From Candidatus Hydrogenedentota bacterium (GTDB lineage Bacteria > Hydrogenedentota > Hydrogenedentia > Hydrogenedentales > CAITNO01): a DNA stretch of 64,000 nucleotides. The position numbers and the translations under genes are program-made. Every line of letters begins with the position of its first letter. Position 1 is the first letter of the stretch. The notes beneath the pieces were generated by a model, which was given only the letters and a program-made list of their open reading frames with translations, was not told where the DNA came from and searched no databases. Below, one piece after another: positions 4,128-62,558 of the stretch. Location: assembly GCA_012730105.1 (NCBI GenBank), contig JAAYBJ010000066.1:1-64000 (forward strand). Direction: 5' to 3'.

Positions 4128-6416
4128 ATGTTGTCTTTCACATACAAGCGGATAAGAATGTTTTTTAATACAGGAGTGGTCTGCAATGCGATGATTATGA
4201 TTGTCGCCTTTGCCCTGTCGGTAATCTTTTTGACGGGGTGTCCCTCGCTCAATGATGAGGCGCGGGATGTGTTCATCAAGGCACTCGAGAATGACGGTTG
4301 CCGGGGGTGTGAAGGGTGCAACCCTGAAGAGGGGGAGGGGGAAGCAGAAGGAGAGGGAGAAACCGCAATTGAAGGAGAAGGGGAGGAGATACCCGAAGGT
4401 GAAGAATACCCGGAGGGAGAGGGGGAGATGAGAGTGGAAGGGGAAGGAGAAGGTATCACAGAAGGCGAGGGCGAAATGATGCTGGAAGGTGAAGGTGAGG
4501 TGCTACCCGAAGGTGAAGGTGAGGTGCTACCCGAAGGTGAAGGTGAAGTGCTGCCCGAAGGCGAGGGCGAAGTCCTCTCCGAAGGTGAGGGCGAAGCGCC
4601 TGAAGAAGGGGAGTTCCCGTTGGAAGGCGAGGGTGAATTGATGCCGGAAGGTGAAGGCGAGGGTGAAGCGACACCGGAAGGTGAAGCAGAATCAGAACCA
4701 CTTTTAGATTGCCCGCCAGATACCGTTTTTTCACAGAACGCAAGCCTGTCCGTTTCAGATTATTACTTCACAGACTTGACGGGTGGTATTTTGGCTTTGG
4801 ACAACCTTATCGTTGATTTGGGCGAGGATGTTGTTTCAACTGATGATGATGTATATTTGAGCGAAGACGTTTATGGTGTTCACTGGTGGGGAGTTGAATG
4901 TGGCGCAGAGAACCGTCCGTGTGCCGGTGATCTTGGAGCATTTGCTATATCCCTTTCAACTTGGAATGCATCGATAGGGCTATATGAGGAAACGTGTGGA
5001 TGGAATAATATCCAGCCGTCGCGGGTGCCGGCTAACTTCTCTGTTATCACGGATGAGGGTGAACTGCCTGTATATTCCTATACAGCCCAGATGGACCCGC
5101 CGTGTCTTGCCTTAACCGGGGAACCGATTTATATTAACATTCGGCCTATGCCGTCCGCGGGTGGCAAAACGGAAGGGTGTCGTTTTGGGTGGCTGGCAAC
5201 GGATCAGGGCGTGGATAATCAGTTTGTGATTGTCAGTGCTACGGAAGAAGGTGCAACTACAGAAATCATAGAGGGTAATCTTACCGTTTGCTTGATAACA
5301 GGCATACCGGAAGGTGAAGGGGAGATTGCTGTCGAGGGCGAGGGTGAGGAGTTGCCTGAAGGCGAAGGGGAATTGCTCGTGGAAGGGGAAGGCGAAGAGG
5401 AAGGGGAAATTGAGGCCCCGGAAATGGTGCTGGTGCCTGCAGGAACCTTTACCATGGGTCGTCCCTACCCATGGACAGATGTTTGGGAAAGCGAAGGGGA
5501 AGAGGAGCAAACCGATGAATTGCCTGTGCATTCGGTATCTCTGGACGCCTATATGATTGGCAAATATGAGGTGACAAATCAGGAATACTGTGATGTACTT
5601 AATTGGGCGTTTGGGCAAAGTTATCTGAAAGACGCGACTGGCGAGGATTGGCTGGGTACCGGCAGTATCTATGCTGTTAGTGGCGAACCCTACATCCTGG
5701 TAGATTTGGAACGTATTGAATGTAACATACAGTATTTGGACGGGGCGTTCTATCCGAAAACGCGAATGGGACTTCCCGAAATAACCAGTTATTCCATGGG
5801 AAACCATCCCATGCTGTCGGTTTCCTGGTATGGTTCGGCGGCTTACTGTAACTGGCTGAATGAAATACATGGGCTGACACCCTGCTATGATATGGCAACG
5901 GAGGGCTGGGATCTGGATGCTTCCGCGTTGGCTGCGGGCGGGTACAGACTGCCCACGGAGGCGGAATGGGAACGTGCGGCAGCTTGGGACGGCGTTAAGC
6001 ATTGGGTCTACGGATGCTCCAGTGATGTCTTGGACGCCGCCCGGTGCAACTTTTACCTTGAGGCGCTTGTGAATCCGCTGGGTCTTGCAGTTCGGCCGTT
6101 TACAGCACCGGTCGGCTGGTTTGACGGTGTCAATATCAGTCCTAACGGTGGAGTGTTGACTGTTGATGGCGCGAGCCCGTCCGGGGTCTATGACATGTCA
6201 GGAAATGTATGGGAATGGTGCCACGATTGGTATGGTCCTTACGCAGCGGAAGCCCAAACGAACCCGACAGGACCCGCTGCAGGCACTGAACGTGTTTTCC
6301 GAGGTGGGTCCTTTGAAGACCTGGCGGGTAGTTGCCGTTCTGCGGAACGGGATAAACGTCCCCCAGATAAAACCCCGTATAAACGCGGCTTTCGCATTGT
6401 GCAATCGGTTAAATAG
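4128..6416 (+). CDS. lipoprotein with Glu-Gly repeats and C-terminal SUMF1 (FGE-fold) domain
   Basis: 762 aa, surface or periplasmic. A signal peptide with lipobox LTGC puts the acylated Cys at residue 38. Residues about 67-187 are a low-complexity acidic EGEGE tract; about 190-390 is an unrecognised beta-rich domain; a second EGEGE block spans about 394-429; residues 432-762 are a SUMF1/formylglycine-generating-enzyme fold (MVLVPAGTFTMG, YRLPTEAEWERAAAWDG, MSGNVWEW, FRGGSF). The twin catalytic Cys of true FGE are not seen after FRGGSF, where only one Cys stands (GSCRSAERD), so a binding or structural role is likelier than sulfatase activation. AAGGAG lies 8-9 bases before the ATG. A paralogue lies at 9049-11943. 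The acidic linkers may bind calcium or act as stalks; that is conjecture. Confidence 0.88.
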   Translation: MLSFTYKRIRMFFNTGVVCNAMIMIVAFALSVIFLTGCPSLNDEARDVFIKALENDGCRGCEGCNPEEGEGEAEGEGETAIEGEGEEIPEGEEYPEGEGEMRVEGEGEGITEGEGEMMLEGEGEVLPEGEGEVLPEGEGEVLPEGEGEVLSEGEGEAPEEGEFPLEGEGELMPEGEGEGEATPEGEAESEPLLDCPPDTVFSQNASLSVSDYYFTDLTGGILALDNLIVDLGEDVVSTDDDVYLSEDVYGVHWWGVECGAENRPCAGDLGAFAISLSTWNASIGLYEETCGWNNIQPSRVPANFSVITDEGELPVYSYTAQMDPPCLALTGEPIYINIRPMPSAGGKTEGCRFGWLATDQGVDNQFVIVSATEEGATTEIIEGNLTVCLITGIPEGEGEIAVEGEGEELPEGEGELLVEGEGEEEGEIEAPEMVLVPAGTFTMGRPYPWTDVWESEGEEEQTDELPVHSVSLDAYMIGKYEVTNQEYCDVLNWAFGQSYLKDATGEDWLGTGSIYAVSGEPYILVDLERIECNIQYLDGAFYPKTRMGLPEITSYSMGNHPMLSVSWYGSAAYCNWLNEIHGLTPCYDMATEGWDLDASALAAGGYRLPTEAEWERAAAWDGVKHWVYGCSSDVLDAARCNFYLEALVNPLGLAVRPFTAPVGWFDGVNISPNGGVLTVDGASPSGVYDMSGNVWEWCHDWYGPYAAEAQTNPTGPAAGTERVFRGGSFEDLAGSCRSAERDKRPPDKTPYKRGFRIVQSVK
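4327..4690 (+). repeat. tandem repeat encoding EGEGE linker
   Basis: Degenerate GAAGGTGAAGGTGA-type tandem repeats in frame within the lipoprotein gene. Two 24-base units at 4485-4508 and 4509-4532 are identical, and the following unit differs by a few third-position changes. A shorter block of the same kind lies at about 5310-5410. The near-identity of adjacent units suggests recent slippage or unequal exchange. Confidence 0.9.
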
Positions 6417-8879: not shown

Positions 8880-9048
8880 GTACAGGCATTTGCCGTTATT
8901 CCGCTTACAAGTAACTACAGATTGGGAATCCCGGATCAGTAAGATCGGACGGATAAGATTGATCTGACTGATCAGCCTGATGTGCAAAGCGTTTTTTGCG
9001 GCTTCTTTGGCGCGTCGGCGGCCCTCGTCCAATAAGGAGAAAGAAATC

Positions 9049-11943
9049 ATGCTACATCCTGCAGTCAGCAACAACACCTTGACGCTGATAGAAACGGTGT
9101 GCATGGCCTTCATGGTCTTTTTGTCCATGTCGTACAACGCCGTAGCCGTTACTGGCAGCGGTGCCACGCCGGCAATGCTGCTGGAGACCGTTTCGCCCGT
9201 GCTGCAATCGGCGGAAGCTGTTACGGATAATAGCGTGTCGGTGACCTTCAGTGAAGCGCTGCTTACGCCCGGCTCGACAACATCGGATAACTATGCGATA
9301 TCGGGAGAGGGTACGGGAACGCTGGATGCCTCGCCTTCCGGGGCATCAGGTGGCCCGGCAGCGTTTACACTCGATTGGGCGGCCGGCGAAATGCGCGACG
9401 GCGCCTCGCTTACACTTACAGCATCGGGTGTGCAGGACGCCTTGGGCAATCTCATTAACCCGGCCGCGAATACGGCGTCCTTCGAGGGACTGGGAACGGT
9501 CCCGGTATTTTCAGGAGTGACAGTTCTGCCGCCGCAGGCTTGGGTGCGCCTACCTGTGGTATTGAAGTTTTCCGTGTCGGAAAAATTGAAAGGTTCCCCG
9601 AAAGTACTGGTGAATGGCAACATGGCCACGTATGTCGGGGAAGATCCATACCACAACTATACCTATCAGTATACTGTAAAGCGGGGTGATGTGCCGGGCA
9701 TGGCCACAATAGAATTGTCCGGCGAGGATCTGGCGGGTAATTCGGGCATATCTGTGGATGACACCGCGCTGGAAATTATCACCAACCCGCAGGGGATGCC
9801 CTTGTATTGGTTGCCTATTTCTTTAATGCTGCCGGCCGCAGGAATGTTGCTTCTGCGTCGCCGCCATGATTCGTGGAAAATTGCGGGATCAAAAAAACGC
9901 TCCCTGTTCCTTGTTTTTTGCCTTGCTCCGGTCCTAGGCTGCGCGCCCGCTTTTGCGCAGGTCCCGGCGGTCACCAACGTGACCATGACCCAAAGCCCGA
10001 ACGGGGCACTTGGCACCAGGGTGGATATCTATTATGATTTGACCGCAAACGCCCCGTGCGATGTTGTGCTGTCCCTGTCGAAAGACAATGGTTCCGATGG
10101 CTACGTGCATGCCATCCGACACTATTCAGGCGACATCGCAAATGTCGAGCCGGGAACAGGAAGACATATTGTTTGGGACATTTGCGCTGATTATCCCGAA
10201 GAAACAATTCCCGACGCGAGTATTCTCGTAACGGCCGATGATGAAAATATTGTCCACACACTGCAATATGCGGCGGGTGAACATGGTTACATCATTGGCA
10301 CAACGGTGCAAACCCTGAACCACGGCGAGGATGGCGAAACAGTTACGGCGGCGCCGGACGAAGGGTATCATTTCGTCGCCTGGAGCGACGGCGTAACGAC
10401 GCCCTCCCGCCAGGATAGCGGGGTTACCGGCAGCCTTACCGTTACGGCGAGTTTTGCTATCAATATCTATACCATTACTTGCATTTCTGAAGGAAGCGGC
10501 ATTTGCGCCGCCGATCCGGCGGTGGTGAATCATGGTGATGCGAGCACTATCACCATAAGCCCGGCAGCCGGATGGTATATAGACAGCGTAATGGACAGTG
10601 AGGAAGGCGTAAAGTCCGGTTCCTATACAACGACACCGCTAACAGCGGATCGGACCGTTACAACCACCTTTGCCACGGGGCTTGTTATCTCGACATTTTC
10701 CATCAATGCCGGCGCGGATGCGACGGGAGATATCCTGGTAACCCTGGACAACGGCTGTACGGGAACTCCGTTCGAATACCTGGCTTCCGAATCCGAAACC
10801 TTTACCGGATCTGAGTGGCAGCCCTACGCGCCGTCTCCAGCCTTTTCGCTTTCCCCGGGCGTGGGGCCGCGCACTGTATACTTCAAGGTAAGGAACGGCA
10901 GCGGCGAATCGGCCGTGGCGAGCGACGTTATTTTTTTGGAACCAAAAATGCTTCCTGTCGCGGCGGGGACCTTTGACATGGGTCGGACGGATATCGGGGA
11001 TGATGCCTTTTACGGTTCCTATAGCGAACTGCCTGTGCACCCGGTTACGCTTGACGCTTATGAAATCGCCAAGTACCAGACGACCAACAAGCAGTTCTGC
11101 GATGTACTCAATTGGGCGCTGGCGAAGGGCTACTTAAAAACCTATAATGGCTTTCCCTGGACGGGAACGGGCGACATCTACGGTGGCGGCAATCTGCAGA
11201 TTCTTGTTGCGATGGTGTTGCCGGATTGGGAACCACCATGTAGTATTCAGTTTGTAGAAGGAACATTCATCTCTAAAACAAAGGCTGGCCTTCCTGAAGG
11301 AACCCTTTATTCGATGGACACTCACCCGATGATTCGCACCTCCTGGTTTGGCCATGCGGCGTTCTGCAACTGGTTGAGCGAATGGCAGGGATTGACGCCC
11401 TGCTATGACATGGACTCGGCGAACTGGCCGCTGACCACGCCGCCGCCCCAGTCTGGCGGCTACCGGCTGCCGACGGAAGCGGAGTGGGAGCGGGCTGCGG
11501 CCTGGGACGGCAACAGGCACTGGATTTACGGGTACACCAATGATACCCTGAGTGAGGCCCGCTGCAACTATGGTAATCATCCCTACGGACCCTATGTAAA
11601 CCCGCTGGGCCTTACGGAACTCCCTTATACCTCTCCGGTCGGCTGGTTTGACGGCGTGAACATCAGCCCGAACGGTAATGTGCCTACCATTGACAGTCCA
11701 AGTCCAGTGGGGGCTTACGACATGTCGGGCAATGTTTGGGATACATGCCAGGACTGGTATTCCTCAACCTATTACTCCGGCGGGGCCATGACCAATCCGA
11801 CGGGGCCTGCCACGGGTGTCACCAAGGCATTTCGTGGTGGTTCGTTCAGGCATGCCCAAGATTGCCGCACTGCCAGCCGTGACAGCCGCGAACCGGATAA
11901 AACACCCTATTGGCGTAGTGGTCGCGTTGCCCGAACGCCCTGA
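9049..11943 (+). CDS. secreted multidomain protein, Ig-like plus internal sorting signal plus SUMF1 domain
   Basis: 964 aa from ATG 9049, which follows AAGGAGAAAG. An N-terminal signal segment is followed by bacterial Ig-like (Big_5/SbsA type) modules at about 40-240. Around residues 247-277 a membrane segment and Arg cluster (LPISLMLPAAGMLLLRRRHD) look like a C-terminal sorting signal, and at 279-304 a second signal-peptide-like stretch ends APAFAQ. Then come a beta-rich domain, InlB-like repeats (GYHFVAWSDG) at about 405-543, and a SUMF1 fold at 633-964 (PVAAGTFDMG, YRLPTEAEWERAAAWDG, MSGNVWD). The FGE catalytic Cys pair is missing. The SUMF1 part is a close paralogue of that in 4128-6416. 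The internal signals suggest fusion of two ancestral genes. Confidence 0.85.
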   Translation: MLHPAVSNNTLTLIETVCMAFMVFLSMSYNAVAVTGSGATPAMLLETVSPVLQSAEAVTDNSVSVTFSEALLTPGSTTSDNYAISGEGTGTLDASPSGASGGPAAFTLDWAAGEMRDGASLTLTASGVQDALGNLINPAANTASFEGLGTVPVFSGVTVLPPQAWVRLPVVLKFSVSEKLKGSPKVLVNGNMATYVGEDPYHNYTYQYTVKRGDVPGMATIELSGEDLAGNSGISVDDTALEIITNPQGMPLYWLPISLMLPAAGMLLLRRRHDSWKIAGSKKRSLFLVFCLAPVLGCAPAFAQVPAVTNVTMTQSPNGALGTRVDIYYDLTANAPCDVVLSLSKDNGSDGYVHAIRHYSGDIANVEPGTGRHIVWDICADYPEETIPDASILVTADDENIVHTLQYAAGEHGYIIGTTVQTLNHGEDGETVTAAPDEGYHFVAWSDGVTTPSRQDSGVTGSLTVTASFAINIYTITCISEGSGICAADPAVVNHGDASTITISPAAGWYIDSVMDSEEGVKSGSYTTTPLTADRTVTTTFATGLVISTFSINAGADATGDILVTLDNGCTGTPFEYLASESETFTGSEWQPYAPSPAFSLSPGVGPRTVYFKVRNGSGESAVASDVIFLEPKMLPVAAGTFDMGRTDIGDDAFYGSYSELPVHPVTLDAYEIAKYQTTNKQFCDVLNWALAKGYLKTYNGFPWTGTGDIYGGGNLQILVAMVLPDWEPPCSIQFVEGTFISKTKAGLPEGTLYSMDTHPMIRTSWFGHAAFCNWLSEWQGLTPCYDMDSANWPLTTPPPQSGGYRLPTEAEWERAAAWDGNRHWIYGYTNDTLSEARCNYGNHPYGPYVNPLGLTELPYTSPVGWFDGVNISPNGNVPTIDSPSPVGAYDMSGNVWDTCQDWYSSTYYSGGAMTNPTGPATGVTKAFRGGSFRHAQDCRTASRDSREPDKTPYWRSGRVARTP

Positions 11944-15915: not shown

Positions 15916-17418
15916 CTATAAATATCCTAAGGAGCGCAGTTCTTCCACAGTACCTTGATCAGTCCCAATGTACTGGGGCTCGCCAAAAGTACGACTCAAC
16001 TGGCGATGTTTTTCTCTGAAAGTGGCCGTACTTGCCAGTAGTTCAGAGGCCATCGGGATTTCATCGATAAGATTTACTTTTTCCTTGGGGTCATTAGTAC
16101 GATCGTATATTTCGGCGGTCTGCCCGGTTCCGAGGTCATAGACTTTATACCCGCCTTCAATATGACAGAATTGCCATTTATTCATATCGGATTCATTCTT
16201 GTCGAAATAAGCGTTAATGGGCCGGTGTTCAGTGACGTTTAATTTTCCCTCTTTTGTTAAAAGACTTTTTGCCTGCACGGTGTCAGGGGGTGAACCCCCA
16301 GCCAGTGTAATTAATGTAGGAAATAAATCATACAGGTTAACGTGCCAGGGTACGCGTACTCCAAGGGGTTTGTTCCCTAAACGAATGATCAGCGGGACAT
16401 GTAATTCTTCGTCATAGAGCGCATTATTGTGTGCGAAAAAACGGTGTTCTCCGAAAGCCTCTCCGTGGTCTGCCATAAAAACCACGATGGTATTGTTTTC
16501 GATCCCCAGAAGCGCTAACGTATCCAGTAGTCTTCGGAAATGATAGTCTACTCCGCGAATCTCCGCATCATAGAGTTTTATTAAATAATCTATTCCTGCG
16601 GGGCTCAGGTCATTCATAATTTTCTTTTTAAAGTCGCTTGCGTGGGCTTCATAATGCATTCGAAAAGATTGAATAATATCCATATCACGCGGGTTCAATT
16701 TTTTCTGGGATTCTTCCGGTGATTCACGGAATAGATCGTAATAAAAGGATTCTTTGGGAATATATGGCCCATGCGGATCAATAGCATGAATAAAAGCAAA
16801 AAACGGATGGTGTGATGTGGCGTGTAGCCATTCAATGACTGCGTTTACCTGATTTTCTGGCGGCTCCGCAGGTACATATCGATAGTGCTGGAAGCCCCGA
16901 CCAAAGCCGAATTCACGTTGGCAATGCGGGCATGTTTGAAATAAGGCTGTTGAATAGCCTTGGTTCTTGAGTATTTCGGATAAGGTGGGAAAGTTTTCAC
17001 GGAGAGATTGTATTTTGTAGCCCAAGGGATTATTAGAATCCCAGTGCGAAAGGTTTCTTGTATCCCATGATGTAAGAACAGCCTGGTGCACACATGGCAA
17101 ATATCCTGTGAATAATGAGGCTATTGAAGGTTTTGTCCATGGCGCCTGAGAATAGCAACGCTCGAAGACTATGCCTGTCCGGGCCATTGCGTCAATACAA
17201 GGACTGGTGGGAAAGGAATAACCGTAAGTGCCAAGATGATTTGCCCTCAGCGCGTCAGAAAGAAACACCACAATGTTTGGCAAGGCGTTTTCTTCAGATT
17301 GTCTTGAAGGATTGGGGAAGCACCCGGAAGTTGTCGCAATCGCCGATGCAAATGCGGCTCCGCCTGCAGCCAAGGCTTCACGACGTGTGCACGTGAATGT
17401 TTTGAGTCTATCGAGCAT
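15916..17418 (-). CDS. exported sulfatase-fold hydrolase with Thr nucleophile position
   Basis: 500 aa of the alkaline-phosphatase/sulfatase superfamily. The N-terminus has twin Arg (CTRREALAAGG) and a Cys after TSG (C33), suggesting Tat export and possibly lipid anchoring. Metal ligands: D55 in FLSDALR, D317-H318 in MADHGEAFGEH, and the HAIDPHGPYIP region near 211-221. Where classical sulfatases have C-x-P-x-R, this has T95-K-P-S-I followed by ASLFTG, so no Cys exists for conversion to formylglycine. Thr is the nucleophile in related phospho-transferring enzymes (LtaS, EptA, NPP), so the reaction may involve phosphate esters or be FGE-independent. A single-gene unit with its own promoter. 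Confidence 0.88.
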   Translation of the reverse strand: MLDRLKTFTCTRREALAAGGAAFASAIATTSGCFPNPSRQSEENALPNIVVFLSDALRANHLGTYGYSFPTSPCIDAMARTGIVFERCYSQAPWTKPSIASLFTGYLPCVHQAVLTSWDTRNLSHWDSNNPLGYKIQSLRENFPTLSEILKNQGYSTALFQTCPHCQREFGFGRGFQHYRYVPAEPPENQVNAVIEWLHATSHHPFFAFIHAIDPHGPYIPKESFYYDLFRESPEESQKKLNPRDMDIIQSFRMHYEAHASDFKKKIMNDLSPAGIDYLIKLYDAEIRGVDYHFRRLLDTLALLGIENNTIVVFMADHGEAFGEHRFFAHNNALYDEELHVPLIIRLGNKPLGVRVPWHVNLYDLFPTLITLAGGSPPDTVQAKSLLTKEGKLNVTEHRPINAYFDKNESDMNKWQFCHIEGGYKVYDLGTGQTAEIYDRTNDPKEKVNLIDEIPMASELLASTATFREKHRQLSRTFGEPQYIGTDQGTVEELRSLGYL

Positions 17419-28163: not shown

Positions 28164-28294
28164 GTCTTATCTACAAGGCCTTTGAGTCGTTTACAGCGGT
28201 ACAAGAGGGTGTCTCACGCAAATCGTCAGTGAATCCGTCTTATACCGTCGCAATCCGTGTGCGGGAAGATAAATCCAAGGAGCGGCACAGGTTC

Positions 28295-30484
28295 ATGCAC
28301 ATTTTGATTACGGGAGGGGGAGGCTACCTTGGGGGTTGGGTGGTTTCCTCCGCGATCGCGCGCGGCCATAGTGTTCGCGTACTGGACCGCTTTTGCTTCC
28401 TGTCATCCTCTATGACTCCGGAAACGGTGTTTGCGGAAGAATTGGCATCCGGAAAATTGGAATTGATCCAAGGGGATATTCGGCGTCTGCAGGAATATCC
28501 CAGCCTGCTCGATGGCATAGACACGGTGATTCATCTTGCGGGTTTGTCGAGTGATCCCACCTGTGACCTTGATCCCGAAATGGCGCAGGAAGTCAACGTG
28601 GAATGTACCCGGGAACTGGCACGCCAATCGTTGCAGGCTAGCGCGAAGCGGTTTCTGTTCGCGTCCACCTGCGCCGTTTACGGCCACGGCGTATTTGAAC
28701 TGCTGGATGAAGAAAGCCCCTCCAACCCGGTGTCGGTTTTCGCAAAAACGAAACTGGACGCGGAACAGGCCCTGCTGTCCATGGCTTCCACGTCATTTTC
28801 CCCGGTTGTAGCGCGCATGGGAACGCTTTTCGGTTTTTCCAGGCGGATGCGTTTTGACCTTGCCGTGAATCATATGGTCGCGACGGCCATGAGGCAGAAG
28901 CGGATATTGGTTCGCGGGGGCGGCGGTCAGTGGCGTCCGTTCATTCATGTGTGCGACGCGGCGGAAGCGCTGTTGCTGCTTGCCGAGGCGCCGGACGCTG
29001 TCGTTGAAGGCGAAATATTCAACGTGGGAACGGATGAACAAAACATAAGGGTTTCTGATCTGGCCAGGCTTGTCTCCGACGCTCTTGGTGGCGTGACAAT
29101 CGACATAGCCAAGGATGACGATGACCTGCGCAATTACCGGGTCCGCTTTACAAAACTGAACCGCGAATTCCGGTTTCAGCCGCAGCGCGGATTGCATGAC
29201 GGCATTGAAGAGGTTCGGCACTATCTTCTTGACGGGTCGGTGGAACCCTTTGATGAGCAGTATTTTAACGTGGACCGAATGAAACGGCTTCGGGCCACCC
29301 CCGTGGACGAGGGGGGCGAGCCTGTAGCCGCGCGTTTTATCCCGTTAAGCAGGCCGGGGCTTGGTCCTGAAGAGGAACAGGCAGTATTGAACGTGCTGCG
29401 GACGGGTTGGCTGACTTCGGGTCCGCAGGTAAAAATCTTTGAGCAGATGGTGGCGGATGCGGTGAATTCCCGTTTCGCTGTCGGAGTTTCGTCTTGTACG
29501 GCGGCTCTGCACCTGTGCCTGGCTGACTTGGGAATCGGGCTAGGCGATGAGGTGATCACATCGCCTATTACCTGGGCGTCCACGGGCAATACTGTCTTGA
29601 ATATGGGCGCCTCCCTGCGTTTTGTGGATGTGGATCCCGTAACCATGAACATGGATCCAGCCCGCCTGAAAGAGGCGATATCGGAACGGACCAAAGCCAT
29701 TATCCCCGTGCATATTGCCGGTTTGCCCTGCGACATGGATGCTATTCGCGGCATCGCGGAAAGCGCCGGGATCCCCGTTATAGAGGACGCGGCGCACGCT
29801 ATTGGCGCGTCTTACAAGGGGCGCATGATCGGGTCTGAGGGCCCCTGTTGTTTCAGTTTTTATGCTATCAAAAATATCACCACCATGGAAGGCGGCATGA
29901 TCACCGTGAATGATGCGGATAGGGCGAACCGGCTGCGGTTGCTGGCCGCGAATGGCATGACCGCCACTGCCTGGGACCGCTACGGACGAAGCGCCGTTCC
30001 CGCCCCGTCGGAGGTGATCCAGCCGGGATTCAAATACGCTCTCGGTAACGTGAACGCAGCCATGGGTATAGAACAGATGAAGAAGTTTGACACGTTCAGG
30101 GCATCCCGCAGGCGCATCGCCGAAATGTACACTTCCGTGCTGGCCGGCGTGGAGGAGATCGAAGTGCCCGGGACGCCCGACGAGTCGGAACACGCCTGGC
30201 ATCTGTATGTTATCCGGCTGAACCTGCGGACACTTACCCGGAACCGGAATGAGATCATGCAGGATTTAAGGCGGGAGAACATCGGGACCGGCGTGCACTT
30301 TTATGGACTCCATCTCCACCGGTACTACGCGGACACGCTGGGTTTGCGCCCCGAGGATTTTCCCGTGTCGACGGATCTTTCCAACCGCGTGATATCGCTT
30401 CCGCTACATCCGCAATTGAGCGACCGCCATATCCACGAGGTTGTATCAGCGCTGAAGAAAGTCTTGTCGTATCGAAGAAAATAA
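28295..30484 (+). CDS. fusion: SDR-type sugar-nucleotide epimerase plus ArnB-like PLP aminotransferase
   Basis: 729 aa from ATG 28295 (AAGGAG upstream). Residues 1 to about 310 form an extended SDR: nucleotide loop TGGGGYLGG, RPFIHVCDAAEA, EGEIFNVGTD. Where the catalytic YxxxK belongs, the sequence is F149-AKT-K153, so the Tyr is lost. Residues about 345-729 are a DegT/DnrJ/EryC1 aminotransferase very like ArnB: internal aldimine K526 in SFYAIKNITTMEGG, then AWDRYG and GTGVHFYGLHLHRYY. ArnB makes 4-amino-4-deoxy-arabinose nucleotides. The fusion probably turns a UDP-sugar into an amino sugar for a surface glycan, but the SDR half may only bind substrate or act with another base. Confidence 0.9.
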   Translation: MHILITGGGGYLGGWVVSSAIARGHSVRVLDRFCFLSSSMTPETVFAEELASGKLELIQGDIRRLQEYPSLLDGIDTVIHLAGLSSDPTCDLDPEMAQEVNVECTRELARQSLQASAKRFLFASTCAVYGHGVFELLDEESPSNPVSVFAKTKLDAEQALLSMASTSFSPVVARMGTLFGFSRRMRFDLAVNHMVATAMRQKRILVRGGGGQWRPFIHVCDAAEALLLLAEAPDAVVEGEIFNVGTDEQNIRVSDLARLVSDALGGVTIDIAKDDDDLRNYRVRFTKLNREFRFQPQRGLHDGIEEVRHYLLDGSVEPFDEQYFNVDRMKRLRATPVDEGGEPVAARFIPLSRPGLGPEEEQAVLNVLRTGWLTSGPQVKIFEQMVADAVNSRFAVGVSSCTAALHLCLADLGIGLGDEVITSPITWASTGNTVLNMGASLRFVDVDPVTMNMDPARLKEAISERTKAIIPVHIAGLPCDMDAIRGIAESAGIPVIEDAAHAIGASYKGRMIGSEGPCCFSFYAIKNITTMEGGMITVNDADRANRLRLLAANGMTATAWDRYGRSAVPAPSEVIQPGFKYALGNVNAAMGIEQMKKFDTFRASRRRIAEMYTSVLAGVEEIEVPGTPDESEHAWHLYVIRLNLRTLTRNRNEIMQDLRRENIGTGVHFYGLHLHRYYADTLGLRPEDFPVSTDLSNRVISLPLHPQLSDRHIHEVVSALKKVLSYRRK

Positions 30485-30643
30485 GCACGGTCCTCACGAC
30501 CCCTGTTTGGAGACCGGCACCTGCAACCATAGGAAATAAAACAGTACATGCACATGTGTTCAGATACAAGGGTGAAAAAGGGGCGGCAGCCGTATGGCCC
30601 TTCTTATGGCTGCCACAAGGGTCCGGTGCGCCGGACGGCTCTC

Positions 30644-32989
30644 ATGCCTTTTCTTATTGTCAGTGTCGTGTATTGTCTTCAGCCAGGCGCGGGCGCTTTT
30701 GAGGCCGGCGCCGCGAAAACGGACATTACCGCGCCGGTAGGTACCCCTTTGAACGGATATGGCGCCCGCATGGGACGGAATTCTGCCGGAATACATGATC
30801 CCATCTGGTCACGCGCCTTATATTTGGACGACGGGGAAACCCGGTTGTTTCTGGTCAGTCTAGACCTTGTAGCGATTAATCCGGAGTTGCGCCAGCGGGT
30901 TGAAGAACTCACCGCCGACCTGATACCTCCGGAAAATATTATATTAACGGCCACCCATACACATAACGGCCACGGTGGCATGAGCCGCAGCATACCCTAT
31001 CGTTTCGTTTCAGGCCGGTTTATTCCCGAAGTGGTGGAATCCACAGCCGCCGGTGTCGCAGCATCCATGAGAAACGCCTTTGAAAAGCGCCGCCGTGCGG
31101 CTCTGGGTTATGCCGTGGGCACGCACCAGGGACTTTCCGCGAATCGTCGCTATCCAGGTGGTCCCACCGATGAACAATTGGGGGTGATCGTGGTGGAGGA
31201 TGCCGATGGAAACCCGATCAGTTTTGTGACCAACTTCGCCGGCCATCCCACCTCTATCGATGATCCGGACACCTTTAATTTTTCCGCCGATTACCCGGGC
31301 TTTTACTGCCTGGAAATGGAAACGCTGCTGGGTCCGGAATGTGTTCCGATATTTTTGAACGGTGCGGAAGGCAACCAGACCATTACCGCGCCTGAAAACA
31401 AAAGTGGTTGGGAGCGTACTGAGGCCGTGGGCAGGATGATTGCCCGGCGCGCCCACGAAATCGCCCAGACGATGACTTTTTCTGAGCCGAAGATGATGCT
31501 TTCCCAGAAAACAGCCCCATTGCCGCTGACCCTGGCCACATTTATACAGCCGGAAGAAGTTGTACTTAAATCTCTGGAAATCAACGACCTGCTGATTTCA
31601 TTTTTTCCCGGGGAGCCCTGTGTGGAACTCGGGCTGAACTTGCGCGCCCTTGCGCTTGCGCGGGGATATGGGGCGCATTTCTCCGTGGGGTTGAGCAACG
31701 ACTATGTCAACTATTTCGTGCCCCGGCATCTTTACGCTGACTTGACGTATGAGTCGGCCATGACTTTTTTCGGGCCGGGCACGGAAGATTGGCTTTATGA
31801 GCAATTCCTGAGTTTGATGCTACGCGTGGGTGCGGATGAGGAAGCCCCAGGGCAGACGCCGCTTCCGGAACCCCTTTTGGAAGAGGTGGACGGCGGCACC
31901 ATGATTACTGTAAAAGGTGATTCCCGTAGTCTGGGTGCGCAGCGGGGCAACGCCTTCGCCGTGGATATTCAGGCGCGCTTTGAACAGCGGGTGGTGCAGC
32001 CGGTCAATCAGGGAGATTGGGTTCCTGATTCGGGGATGTGGGGCGGGCTTCCCGCTTTCGTTAACGTGCCTGCCCTCGCATTGTCCTTTATGGGAATGGG
32101 ATCCAGGAATCTGTTGAAGGGCATTTCACTCGATTTGATGAAGGAAATGGAAGGCATGGCCGAAGGCGCTCGTCTGCCTTTCGAAGGATTGTGGCTGTTG
32201 CAGAATGCGCCGCTTTATGCGGGGATCAATGACAAATCCCTGTTGTATGCCGCGCCCATATGCACCATGGTCGCGATTACCGGGGGGCGCGCGGGGGCGG
32301 AAAGCATCATTATCGGGAGAAACCTGGACTGGGCGCTTCCTGAAAAAGGCGTCATTACCCGCGTGCAACCCGAATCCGGCCATCCATTCATTCAGGCCGG
32401 GTTTTCCTGGAGTTCCGGTGTAGTTACCGGAATGAACGATGGTGGTCTTGTTTTGTGCGTGGAACGAATCCAACCGGAGACGGAGTCCCTTCCACAAAGG
32501 GCTCCCGTAGAGTTTATGCTTCGCGACCTTCTTCAAAGCACGGTAGGTTTCACCGAGGCTGTTGAAGCGGTTAAAGCGCTGGACTATATCCGCAATGTGC
32601 ACGTCATGGTGGCGGGTATGGAGGAGGGGAAGCCAAGGGCCGCGGTGGTTGAACTAGGAAATCCGCCGGTGGTCCGGTATGACGAGGACGGGCTGCTGCT
32701 GGGCGTGTTGCCCGAAAATACAGCCGCGTCCATGGCCACCCGGAAACGTTATACGACGGCGAAAGAGATACTGGCGTCACAGCCGGAGGTTAGTCTCGAA
32801 TTTTTGCAGCAGGTATTGACCGGGGGCGGACAGCCAACCGTGGACAACCTGGAGAGGATTTGGAACGCCCAGACACGCCATAGCGCTATTTTACTGCCAA
32901 CATCGCGGGAAATGTGGGTGGCTTTCCCGCTGGCTTCGGGCAATGCCGGTCAATTCACGCGGATAAGCGTGTCCGGAGAAGCATCATGA
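30644..32989 (+). CDS. secreted fusion: neutral-ceramidase-like domain plus C45-type Ntn hydrolase
   Basis: About 781 aa from ATG 30644, which starts a clear signal peptide (MPFLIVSVVYCLQPGAGAF); the frame is open to 30548 but the extra residues are basic and unlikely. Residues about 20-395 match the neutral/alkaline ceramidase N-terminal fold: AAKTDITAPVGTPLNGYG, the zinc site THTHNGHGG, NFAGHPT, NGAEGNQT and GLSNDYVNYF. Residues about 410-780 match the C45/acid-ceramidase-like Ntn hydrolases: GAQRGNAFA, presumed nucleophile Cys in APICTMVAI, IGRNLDW, GVVTGMNDGGL. Both halves hydrolyse amide bonds of acylated substrates in known relatives. The stop overlaps the next start as ATGA. Substrate unknown; a sphingolipid or N-acyl lipid is plausible. 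Confidence 0.85.
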   Translation: MPFLIVSVVYCLQPGAGAFEAGAAKTDITAPVGTPLNGYGARMGRNSAGIHDPIWSRALYLDDGETRLFLVSLDLVAINPELRQRVEELTADLIPPENIILTATHTHNGHGGMSRSIPYRFVSGRFIPEVVESTAAGVAASMRNAFEKRRRAALGYAVGTHQGLSANRRYPGGPTDEQLGVIVVEDADGNPISFVTNFAGHPTSIDDPDTFNFSADYPGFYCLEMETLLGPECVPIFLNGAEGNQTITAPENKSGWERTEAVGRMIARRAHEIAQTMTFSEPKMMLSQKTAPLPLTLATFIQPEEVVLKSLEINDLLISFFPGEPCVELGLNLRALALARGYGAHFSVGLSNDYVNYFVPRHLYADLTYESAMTFFGPGTEDWLYEQFLSLMLRVGADEEAPGQTPLPEPLLEEVDGGTMITVKGDSRSLGAQRGNAFAVDIQARFEQRVVQPVNQGDWVPDSGMWGGLPAFVNVPALALSFMGMGSRNLLKGISLDLMKEMEGMAEGARLPFEGLWLLQNAPLYAGINDKSLLYAAPICTMVAITGGRAGAESIIIGRNLDWALPEKGVITRVQPESGHPFIQAGFSWSSGVVTGMNDGGLVLCVERIQPETESLPQRAPVEFMLRDLLQSTVGFTEAVEAVKALDYIRNVHVMVAGMEEGKPRAAVVELGNPPVVRYDEDGLLLGVLPENTAASMATRKRYTTAKEILASQPEVSLEFLQQVLTGGGQPTVDNLERIWNAQTRHSAILLPTSREMWVAFPLASGNAGQFTRISVSGEAS

Positions 32990-34626
32990 GTGATACGGTG
33001 CGCAATTATTCCTGGGGCGGCAACTCGAGCAAACGGCGTCGTGCGCTGCGCAGGCACGGGCCGAATATTGCCAAGTATGTCCTGCCTGTTCTCGTGGTGA
33101 CTATTGTTTGGGGCTTCTGGATAACCCGTGACAATTATCCCATGGCCGCCTTTGTCGCCCGGGACCACAGTTATGAAATATTTATTAATAATGTTGTCGA
33201 CAGACGAAAAGATTTTATTAACAGCAATTTGCCCCGGCTCTTTCCGGAACCGTCCAGGGTACGGCAGATCGCGGACGGGCTGTCTCGGGAACTGCCGTTG
33301 CCCGAGTGGCTGTTGAACAACGTGAATGACGGGCTATGTCACATTTCCGGTAATGATATCAGCCGTCCGGAAAACACACTGGTTGTCACCAAAATGACTC
33401 GTATCGGTTGTATTTCCGAAAAGATAGCACGCCTGCTGCCCGCGGTGGAACATGACGAAGCCGGGGGGCTTGATTTGTATCTGCTGCCGGACGCGGGCTT
33501 TTACTATGCGGTCCGCGGGCGTACGTTTCTGCTGACCGCCTCCAGAGACTGCTTGATCCGTGCCCTTTCACTGGATAAGGAGCAGGCGGTTCCCATTGAG
33601 GAATTCGAAGAACGGATTCAAAGGGCGGGCGGGGCGGATCTATATTGTCGCATGGAACCTGCCGCATTTCCCGTGGAGTACCGGCCCTTTGAAGAGTTGT
33701 CCTTCGCGCTCAAGTTTGAAAATGAATCTGCGCGTTTCCTGGTGCAGGGCCGCTTTTCAGAGGAATTCCAGACGCACTACGAAGCGTTGTTTCCCGCCGC
33801 GGCCAGCGGGCCGTTGCCGGCGCCCTTTGATGCTGTGGCGTCCGTTTCGATGGATTTCGGCAAGCCCCTTTCGGAGATACTGGACGCGCTGGCAAAGGTA
33901 TTCTACGAGTCGGACATTTTTCCGGAATGGCTGTGGCACAGTTACAAAATGCCCGAGAATGAAACTGAAATCACTTCCTTGCAGCCTTTGATTGCCTCCA
34001 TGATTCAAACAAGCGATTCCAGGGTAAGGCTGGGCTGGTTCGGTACGGACCCGTATGAAATTGTGCCGGTGCCGCTGATTGCGGCCACATTTGAAACCGA
34101 TACTGACGGAGTATTGCTCCTTTTTGAAAGTATTACACAGACCCCGGAAGTATCTCAGGAAATTGATCTGATTCCCCGGTTGAACGCGGAAGAAATGCTG
34201 GTTCATGTTCCTTTTATCGGCGGACCCAATCTTGAACCCACCCTGGTAACTTTTAATGAGGGCATTATTTTCAGTTCCAGCCTTCCTTTGGCCATGGACC
34301 TCAAAACATCCCTTCCCCTGGCACAAGGGTTTAACCAGGAAGGCAACCTGTACGCTTGTGTTAAGCCGACTGAAGCCATGGAGGCCCTCTTGCAGGCTGC
34401 CCGGGAATTGGCGTTGTCCGGGCTGTTGCGAGGTTATACCCCGGAAAGTTTGGAACTCGCCGCTAAACCGTGGATGGATGCCGCGTCAAGCGCCAAAGAA
34501 GCCGCATTGCTCGCTTCCTGGAGCGGTGGCCAGCTGCGCGCTGAAGTTAAAATCAGTATGCAGCCGCCCAGGCCCGTCAATGCGGCGGAGGGGGAGGATA
34601 ACAACGCGGCGGATACGGATCTATAA
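32986..34626 (+). CDS. membrane-anchored protein of unknown function, coupled to the ceramidase-like gene
   Basis: 546 aa from ATG 32986, overlapping the preceding stop as ATGA. A basic N-terminus (SKRRRALRRHG) and one membrane helix (YVLPVLVVTIVWGFWI, about residues 28-45) place about 500 residues outside. The exported part has two similar alpha/beta-like halves with statements such as SRDCLIRAL and DLKTSLPLAQGFN, reminiscent of DUF3352-type proteins that measure surface residues, but I cannot assign it. The end is acidic and shares one base with the smpB start. Tight coupling suggests it works with the ceramidase-like protein. Confidence 0.75.
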   Translation: MSDTVRNYSWGGNSSKRRRALRRHGPNIAKYVLPVLVVTIVWGFWITRDNYPMAAFVARDHSYEIFINNVVDRRKDFINSNLPRLFPEPSRVRQIADGLSRELPLPEWLLNNVNDGLCHISGNDISRPENTLVVTKMTRIGCISEKIARLLPAVEHDEAGGLDLYLLPDAGFYYAVRGRTFLLTASRDCLIRALSLDKEQAVPIEEFEERIQRAGGADLYCRMEPAAFPVEYRPFEELSFALKFENESARFLVQGRFSEEFQTHYEALFPAAASGPLPAPFDAVASVSMDFGKPLSEILDALAKVFYESDIFPEWLWHSYKMPENETEITSLQPLIASMIQTSDSRVRLGWFGTDPYEIVPVPLIAATFETDTDGVLLLFESITQTPEVSQEIDLIPRLNAEEMLVHVPFIGGPNLEPTLVTFNEGIIFSSSLPLAMDLKTSLPLAQGFNQEGNLYACVKPTEAMEALLQAARELALSGLLRGYTPESLELAAKPWMDAASSAKEAALLASWSGGQLRAEVKISMQPPRPVNAAEGEDNNAADTDL

Positions 34627-59684: not shown

Positions 59685-62558
59685 TTAGTTGATTTTTTCA
59701 GCAGTCAGGATTTTCGCCTCGGCATTTTCAGCATTGGCGATAAAAACGAGCGGGGCGCTGGTGCTCACCTCTTCCAGGAAGTCAACAAAGGCCACACCGT
59801 TTTTGACAACCCCGCGGCCGATAGGGGTTTGGATTTTGCGCAGGAAAGGCTCTTCATAAACGGTGATTATGGCGCCTTCCTGTGCGTATTCAAGATTTAT
59901 GCCCGTGGCAAATTCCTGTTGTTCGGCCAGAATCAATCCCAGATAGCGGTACTTGAGCACGCCGGGCAAGATGAAAATATTGGGATTGCTGGTCCAAATC
60001 TCCAGTGTCGGGTCGCCGATGCAGTGCCACAGGTAAAGTTCGTTTACGGCATCAGAATTGGCAATTGTCGCGCCCATAACGCTGGTGCCGACTTTGGACA
60101 TCAGGTAGAGTTTTCCGTGATTGAGGATATCTCCCAGGCGGCGTTGTGCCGTGGCGGCGCCGAAGGAGCCGATGGCGTTTGGCCAGATGGCATCATAGAA
60201 GCCCTGTGTCAGCGTGCTATTGGCCCAACTCGGACTGTTGCGCGTGTCACCCAGGATACCGACCGCGCCACCGTTCGCCTTACGTAACAACTTCTCACAG
60301 AAATAAACGTTTCCTACGGTGGTCCCATAGGCGCCTCCTGCAGTCTCGTTGTCCCAGAAACCGCTAGCGCAGTTGACGCTGAACACTACGGGTTGCAGTG
60401 TGCCGTTGGTCAGGTCGTCAATTTCGGGCAACTCGTATTCGGGATGGCTCCATCCTTCTTCCCAGCCATGATCGCGGTGCATAATGAGGAAACGGCCTTC
60501 ATTCCAGGCGTTCGTGATATCGTCTGAATCAGCGTTCCAGGCGAATCCGCTCGATGCGCCGATGGCGGTCGGAAGCAGGCTGCCGTCATAATATCGGGTG
60601 GGGGTGGAAGTGCCCGTTTCCATATACAGCCTGTCCACCGTCTTGCCGGCGCTGACCATGACGTTGCGCGCAAATTCCGACACTTCGATGAAGGTGCGCT
60701 GATCCGTGCCGTAGGAGGCGCCGTCGCGACAGCATTGGAACTGCGAAGCCAGGGACGCGTGACTGTAAAAGGTGGTGTTGAAAGGAGGAGTGTCTTCATA
60801 GGCGATAATTTTATTGATCACCGTGTTTGCTTGTTCCAGCGTGTCGACGGGAATGCGTCCCACCGCGAAGTCGGGTATGGTGTCCGTTCCCACCGCGCCG
60901 AGAATGGCATAGGGCCAGTCGGTTCCGATGCTGTTTTGATAGAAGGGGGCAATAAATTCGGCATCGCCCAGCAGCAGAATATAGGAGGGGCGGATGGCCA
61001 TGGCGTAATAGTGGTCGTGGATAAACGTGTCAATCTCCTCTTTTGTGGTGCGGCCTGTTATCCCGGAGCCGGTGCCGCATTGATATACGTTTGTCCAGAT
61101 GCCTTTGCTGCGCTTCCAGTCACGCAGGGCGATTGCCGCATCATTAAAATCGGGATGGGTTAGAATCATGAACTCTTCTCCCAGCAATACCGGCTTGATC
61201 CGACCCTCCACAAAATATTCAATCGCGTTCTTGTTCAGTACCGCCTTGGTAAAGGCGGGTGAGCTGCTTTCAAAAGGACTTAGCATGGCTTCCGTGAGAA
61301 ATGCGCCGCTGCCGCCACTGAATTCCACGTCAAAATTCACGTTGTCAAAGAGCACCAACCTGTTGCTTTGCGGGTAATACTGCCCTGTCGCAACCTCCAC
61401 AAGGTAGTATTCCATATCCCGGGCGTCGCCGAGGTAATTTACAGTAATGGGGGAAGGCGGGTAGGCATTGTCAGAGTTATAGGTCGACGAGTCCAGGGCA
61501 AAAGGCTTGTCTTCAAAAATGGAGGGGTCGGGCCTGGCGTCCACCGGTTGCTCCTGGCAGGGATAGAGGTTCAGGAAGATTTCTTCGGCTATTTCAGGCT
61601 CGGCTTTGGTCAGCAACACTTCCACATCGGCGCCGCGCGGCGCTGCGATCAGCCGCCGCAAGATGGGAATGCCGGGTTTGCCCGGCTCTCCCCCGATTGC
61701 CTCGGCGCCCGGAATATGGACCTGGGTAAAGACCTCTCTCACGCTACCGTCACCAAGGGCAATCGTCTGTACCATGGGCTCTCCGAATAAGCCGAGAGCG
61801 CCGAGCATCTTGGTGGTCTCTTCTCCGACTTCGGCTTCAGCCACCAGCCCCAGACGTTCCGCCCCGGGGCAGACGCTTTTTACCGGAATGGAGCCAAGCA
61901 TATCATAGCGGAGCATTCGCCCCATGTTATACAGCTCTTCAGCAAATCCAACCGCCGCGCCTAGCCGAACATTCTGGGCTTTTTCCAGGAATTTTCCCTC
62001 TAGAACCTCAGCGGATCCGCACGGATCACCCCCACGGTAAAGAAGTTCCGCTTCCAGAAGCCGGGCTTCGAGTTCTAACTCATCGTCTTCTTCAAGAACA
62101 TCATCAGGATCATTTAGAATCAACGTATGTAAAGTTTCATATTCTCCAAGAATACTTTCCACGGCGGTGGCGATGGTTGGTGTTGCGTTCGCTTGTGCGC
62201 CGGCGGCATAATTCCCGGCGCTGTCGTAGGCGAATGCGGCATAAAAATACTCCGTGCCGTTCGCGGCGGTGGCATCCGTATGTGTCGTTCCCAGACCATT
62301 GTAAACGGCGGTGCCGTCCGTGTGTGAAGTAGGCGGCGTGATAGTCTTACGGACAACGGCTACACCGGCGAGGTCTTCATCAGCAGGGTTGTTCCATGTC
62401 AGTACAACCTGTGCATCCCCGGCGGCGGCGGAAAAATTGGTCACTATGCCCGGAGGTGTGGTGTCTTCCGGACATCCGGTAAAGATCGTGGCTATCATGA
62501 ATACGCCCGGTAACAATATCAGGTGCATCCAACCGACTCGGCCCTTTTGGGTACTCAT
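59685..62558 (-). CDS. gingipain-type (C25) cysteine peptidase lipoprotein
   Basis: 957 aa. Lipobox IFTGC with C29 acylated; a fibronectin-III-like domain at about 36-125 (PPGIVTNFSAAAGDAQVVLTWN). Then a helical, acidic region and a beta domain, and the C25 catalytic part from about 480 (YILLLGDAEFIAPFYQ, TIPDFAVGRIPV). The dyad His stands in MHRDHGWEEGW near residue 695 and the nucleophile Cys in FSVNCASGFWDNE near 730. C25 peptidases cut after Arg or Lys in other phyla; specificity here is unknown. AAAGGAG precedes the ATG. It has its own promoter and terminator, so it is a one-gene unit. Confidence 0.87.
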   Translation of the reverse strand: MSTQKGRVGWMHLILLPGVFMIATIFTGCPEDTTPPGIVTNFSAAAGDAQVVLTWNNPADEDLAGVAVVRKTITPPTSHTDGTAVYNGLGTTHTDATAANGTEYFYAAFAYDSAGNYAAGAQANATPTIATAVESILGEYETLHTLILNDPDDVLEEDDELELEARLLEAELLYRGGDPCGSAEVLEGKFLEKAQNVRLGAAVGFAEELYNMGRMLRYDMLGSIPVKSVCPGAERLGLVAEAEVGEETTKMLGALGLFGEPMVQTIALGDGSVREVFTQVHIPGAEAIGGEPGKPGIPILRRLIAAPRGADVEVLLTKAEPEIAEEIFLNLYPCQEQPVDARPDPSIFEDKPFALDSSTYNSDNAYPPSPITVNYLGDARDMEYYLVEVATGQYYPQSNRLVLFDNVNFDVEFSGGSGAFLTEAMLSPFESSSPAFTKAVLNKNAIEYFVEGRIKPVLLGEEFMILTHPDFNDAAIALRDWKRSKGIWTNVYQCGTGSGITGRTTKEEIDTFIHDHYYAMAIRPSYILLLGDAEFIAPFYQNSIGTDWPYAILGAVGTDTIPDFAVGRIPVDTLEQANTVINKIIAYEDTPPFNTTFYSHASLASQFQCCRDGASYGTDQRTFIEVSEFARNVMVSAGKTVDRLYMETGTSTPTRYYDGSLLPTAIGASSGFAWNADSDDITNAWNEGRFLIMHRDHGWEEGWSHPEYELPEIDDLTNGTLQPVVFSVNCASGFWDNETAGGAYGTTVGNVYFCEKLLRKANGGAVGILGDTRNSPSWANSTLTQGFYDAIWPNAIGSFGAATAQRRLGDILNHGKLYLMSKVGTSVMGATIANSDAVNELYLWHCIGDPTLEIWTSNPNIFILPGVLKYRYLGLILAEQQEFATGINLEYAQEGAIITVYEEPFLRKIQTPIGRGVVKNGVAFVDFLEEVSTSAPLVFIANAENAEAKILTAEKIN

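Follow-up and report, generated by a model that had tools for sequence, protein, structure and literature searches.

A predicted exported fusion of two unrelated amidase folds in Candidatus Hydrogenedentota

The window analysed here, a stretch of 64,000 nucleotides from a Candidatus Hydrogenedentota bacterium, contains at 30644-32989 (+ strand) one uninterrupted frame. Behind a probable export signal, this frame encodes first a zinc-amidase-like domain (PF04734) and then an Ntn-hydrolase domain of the C45 family. The open frame runs from an ATG at 30548 to a stop codon at 32987-32989 and offers several in-frame starts, of which that at 30644 yields a protein of 781 amino acids and is the point from which residues are numbered below. 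Our preferred start is the GTG at 30626 (with 30548 and 30644 as alternatives), which by eye gives the best-looking export signal among them (MRRTALMPFLIVSVVYCLQPGAGA); this probable signal (30626-30697, +) has a charged start, a hydrophobic core and an AxA ahead of a conserved EAG. A second gene (32986-34626, +), hereafter the partner, begins four bases inside the stop of the fusion, at an ATGA (32986-32989). Directly upstream of the fusion, a 751-aa chain (28229-30484, +) combines an NAD-dependent epimerase with a DegT-type sugar aminotransferase, an arrangement found next to the PF04734-C45 gene in just a few of the close relatives.

The N-terminal domain (residues ~18-400; 30695-31843, +) belongs to the neutral/alkaline ceramidase superfamily: it scores 95.3 bits against the Pfam model Ceramidase_alk (PF04734; cut-off 32.1), and when 12 orthologues are combined into a profile, neutral ceramidases from human and Pseudomonas are recovered at E-values of 1e-21 and 5e-21, respectively. 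We take the zinc ligands of neutral ceramidase to be three His, one Glu and one Tyr, and all five have aligned counterparts in the window protein, namely H105 and H107 within a THTH motif (30953-30964, +), H201 (31244-31246, +), E324 (31613-31615, +) and Y357 (31712-31714, +), such that zinc binding is predicted from the alignment. An AlphaFold2 model of the fusion, built from 12 orthologue sequences and of moderate confidence (mean pLDDT 72), finds neutral ceramidase 2zws as its best match in a fold search (E 9e-17). The likeness to neutral ceramidase (2zws, 4wgk) therefore extends to the fold and the full set of zinc ligands, whereas identity to the N-terminal half is only ~18-19%, and the fusion differs further in carrying a C45 domain.

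The C-terminal domain (residues ~425-781; 31916-32986, +) is a member of the C45 family by the NCBIfam model C45_proenzyme (NF040521; 103.3 bits against a cut-off of 85), and falls slightly short of the Pfam AAT cut-off (PF03417; 21.9 against 23.2 bits). By alignment, C540 (32261-32263, +) is the predicted Ntn nucleophile and putative point of self-cleavage, and is followed by R559-x-x-D562 (32318-32329, +); these residues, all present in the window protein, correspond to Cys143, Arg159 and Asp162 of acid ceramidase (PMC5915598). The AlphaFold2 model also matches isopenicillin N acyltransferase 2x1c (E 3e-13), with NAAA and acid ceramidase among the next matches. In sequence membership, nucleophile Cys, Arg/Asp pair and fold, the domain thus resembles the acyl-CoA:isopenicillin N acyltransferase type of C45 enzyme (NF040521; 2x1c), yet here it makes up the second half of a longer exported protein and shares ~15% identity with 2x1c. 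Acid ceramidase and NAAA (family C89; 5u84, 6dxw), known enzymes whose substrates are lipid amides, share the Ntn fold and the Cys plus Arg-x-x-Asp arrangement, but the fusion matches them weakly in sequence and has no saposin. The match to the NAAA subunit reaches E 0.0094 with a single sequence and 4e-5 with the profile of 12 orthologues, and the C45 model fits better. Of the "acid-ceramidase/C45-like" label in the earlier note, the C45 part stands at sequence level, while the acid ceramidase likeness lies in the fold. A narrow, single-sequence pattern search recovered no viral relatives of the C45 half.

The central claim of the earlier note, that two unrelated amidase folds occur in one exported chain, is borne out by these Pfam, NCBIfam and fold matches, and both sites carry their conserved catalytic residues in the window protein (the five zinc ligands, and C540, R559 and D562). 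The ceramide specificity that its naming implied is not supported. At the position of the amidase-motif serine of neutral ceramidase, the window protein has a Thr (T246; 31379-31381, +), a placement that we infer because the aligned stretch stops two residues before it, and among the 44 Hydrogenedentota members that retain the three His and the Cys this position is occupied by Thr in 28, Arg in 13, Lys in two and Ala in one. Moreover, the window protein lies far under the cut-off of the neutral-ceramidase equivalog NF041649 (64.9 against 1200), and serine palmitoyltransferase (NF047600) exceeds its cut-off in none of 68 Hydrogenedentota genomes, a test that leaves sphingolipid routes unlike this model outside its reach. 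Four candidates score ~370-500 bits against the cut-off of 640, and the similar enzyme of the window genome itself is BioF/Kbl-like. Given the serine replacement, the equivalog score and the serine palmitoyltransferase result, "neutral ceramidase" is too specific a name, and ceramide made by the cell itself, which we considered and rejected on the last of these grounds, is in general an unlikely substrate. The ceramidase names should yield to "PF04734-C45 fusion". No published description of such a fusion was found in the open-access literature, and it is a new combination of already known domain families.

The fusion is present in 64 of 68 Candidatus Hydrogenedentota genomes, including all 38 of good quality, normally as one full-length match per genome. 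In the window genome, eight ceramidase-like and four C45 loci exceed the cut-offs, and both domains coincide only at the fusion locus. An artefact, in which a frameshift or assembly error joins two neighbouring genes, is practically excluded, since the same fusion recurs as one open frame, mostly without internal stops, in dozens of independently assembled genomes; the hidden frameshift that the earlier note had named as a danger was thus not found. Outside the phylum, eight loci, labelled Omnitrophota or Planctomycetota, are fused. Two records with a Hydrogenedentota-type fusion, titled Nitrospiraceae (L085) and Robiginitomaculum (L104), fall within the Hydrogenedentota clade of the tree and are probably misbinned contigs.

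At 17 loci, all labelled Omnitrophota, the two halves are encoded by adjacent genes on the same strand, ceramidase-like first, as in the fusion, with -292 to +14 bases between the maximal frames. Judged by eye, most of the separate products start with an export signal, and lipoprotein cysteines are present in several. On the tree, at least four changes between fused and split states are required, and a single event may account for most of the adjacent pairs in Omnitrophota. Where two domains share one gene in some lineages and sit in neighbouring genes in others, joint function is the usual inference, and the occurrence of separate genes, adjacent and in the same order, in Omnitrophota argues for joint function; very probably, then, the two amidase halves work together. 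At Omnitrophota loci such as L117, L119, L124, L126, L131 and L132, a CCA-adding/poly(A)-polymerase-like gene immediately precedes the separate pair, a neighbour shared by 13 loci; another gene often nearby is alpha/beta-hydrolase-like. Separate genes also occur in genomes that carry the fusion: a genome of the same genus as that of the window (L162) has a ceramidase-like gene (580-2043) followed on the same strand, after ~127 bases, by a separate C45 gene (2171-3628), and carries the PF04734-C45 fusion elsewhere, while two fusion loci, L050 and L053, have a separate gene of C45 type (426 aa and 451 aa, respectively) one gene upstream.

Where the sequence extends far enough, Hydrogenedentota loci almost always have the partner gene on the 3' side of the fusion, with an overlap of mostly four or eight bases. 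Its product, which has one predicted membrane helix and an extracytoplasmic domain, shows no Pfam family, nor is a Pfam family shared among the partner proteins. Part of its predicted fold weakly resembles the lipoprotein TP0453 (3k8g; TM 0.24/0.46), but the partner is twice as long, with ~8% identity and only partial overlap, and is anchored by a membrane helix where TP0453 is anchored by lipid. A part for this protein in lipid handling is only a lead. Upstream of the fusion, conserved neighbours were not found, the genes there differing between families.

Loss of the active sites offers a further view of the protein. Both sites (scored as the three His and the Cys) are kept in 44 of 60 Hydrogenedentota members and lost together in 10; five retain the zinc site without the Cys, and one the Cys without the zinc site. 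Two Planctomycetota members likewise keep the zinc site with the Cys gone, and these together with the five Hydrogenedentota cases indicate that the sites can part. The rarity with which the Ntn site is kept without zinc would fit an Ntn site that acts second, although the events are few. The double losses sit in two clades of the tree, and this joint loss, along with the adjacent Omnitrophota genes, supports the joint function of two sites proposed in the earlier note; coupled loss is not statistically significant, as the independent pairs number only three, too few to reach significance. In G030, G032, G040, G041, G044 and G048, all genomes in which the fusion lacks both sites, it is also the sole C45 match, unlike in most other Hydrogenedentota genomes, which have several.

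The double-loss members have full-length frames, and the partner gene still adjoins where the contig permits. Pairwise dN/dS was 0.11-0.15 for three pairs in which one or both sites are lost (with dS high or saturated in two), which suggests that purifying selection acts on these proteins. Such persistence is what would be expected of a mainly structural or binding protein, whose folds bind a ligand and in which catalysis is secondary or lost. We consider this quite improbable as a general account, because the 44 members that retain every catalytic residue checked, the window protein among them, would not need these residues for binding alone.

A different explanation is scavenging: the fusion would be an exported N-acyl amidase of broad range, its two sites having no special link, and would release fatty acids from ceramides, N-acylethanolamines or N-acyl amino acids in detritus. 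A published account of the phylum (PMC10866078) credits it with the breakdown of detritus, glycerol and fatty acids, and this, with the enoyl-CoA hydratase gene that lies directly upstream of the fusion in five loci, fits an N-acyl lipid from outside. Other degradative enzymes within the window, in line with a detritus-degrading lifestyle, include a C25 (gingipain-type) peptidase (59685-62558, -), a sulfatase (15916-17418, -) and two proteins with sulfatase-modifying-factor domains (4128-6416 and 8980-11943, both +). However, a gene for scavenging should be patchily distributed, whereas the fusion, together with its fixed partner, occurs in all 38 genomes of good quality, and copies that have lost both sites appear to remain under purifying selection, leaving this explanation rather unlikely. 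The near-universal, single and partner-linked state of the fusion fits better with an envelope role than with an N-acyl lipid from outside. In its strictest form, such a role would make fusion and partner a phylum-core envelope unit that deacylates or transacylates an N-acyl lipid of the cell itself, the two clades of double losses holding a conserved non-catalytic pseudoenzyme; in this specific form we regard the proposal as unlikely.

We favour, as reasonably probable, the broader reading of the fusion as a coupled exported two-site N-acyl amidase/acyltransferase, whether its substrate comes from outside or from the cell's own envelope. Ntn enzymes self-cleave to expose their nucleophile, and after export the C45 domain would accordingly be expected to cut itself before Cys540. 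The N-terminal domain, in which ligand conservation is seen, would bind zinc via H105, H107, H201, E324 and Y357 and cut an amide bond. The two sites may act on the same or on successive N-acyl compounds, as the adjacent Omnitrophota genes and the joint losses suggest, and the acyl group would be either released or transferred; the two-step cutting and transfer put forward in the earlier note would be one such possibility. Judging from the enzyme families and the weak fold match of the partner, the substrate is probably lipidic, and the partner might present it or carry it off, comparable to saposin-D with acid ceramidase.

Mammals have enzymes of both amidase folds that act on ceramide-type lipids; here the two unrelated folds are joined in one bacterial chain. 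The split Omnitrophota pairs are small, separately expressible enzymes that make the proposed N-acyl processing directly testable, and the lineages in which both sites are lost provide natural pseudoenzymes for comparison. Retention of the fusion with a dedicated membrane partner throughout the phylum points to an undescribed step of N-acyl, probably lipid, processing in Hydrogenedentota.
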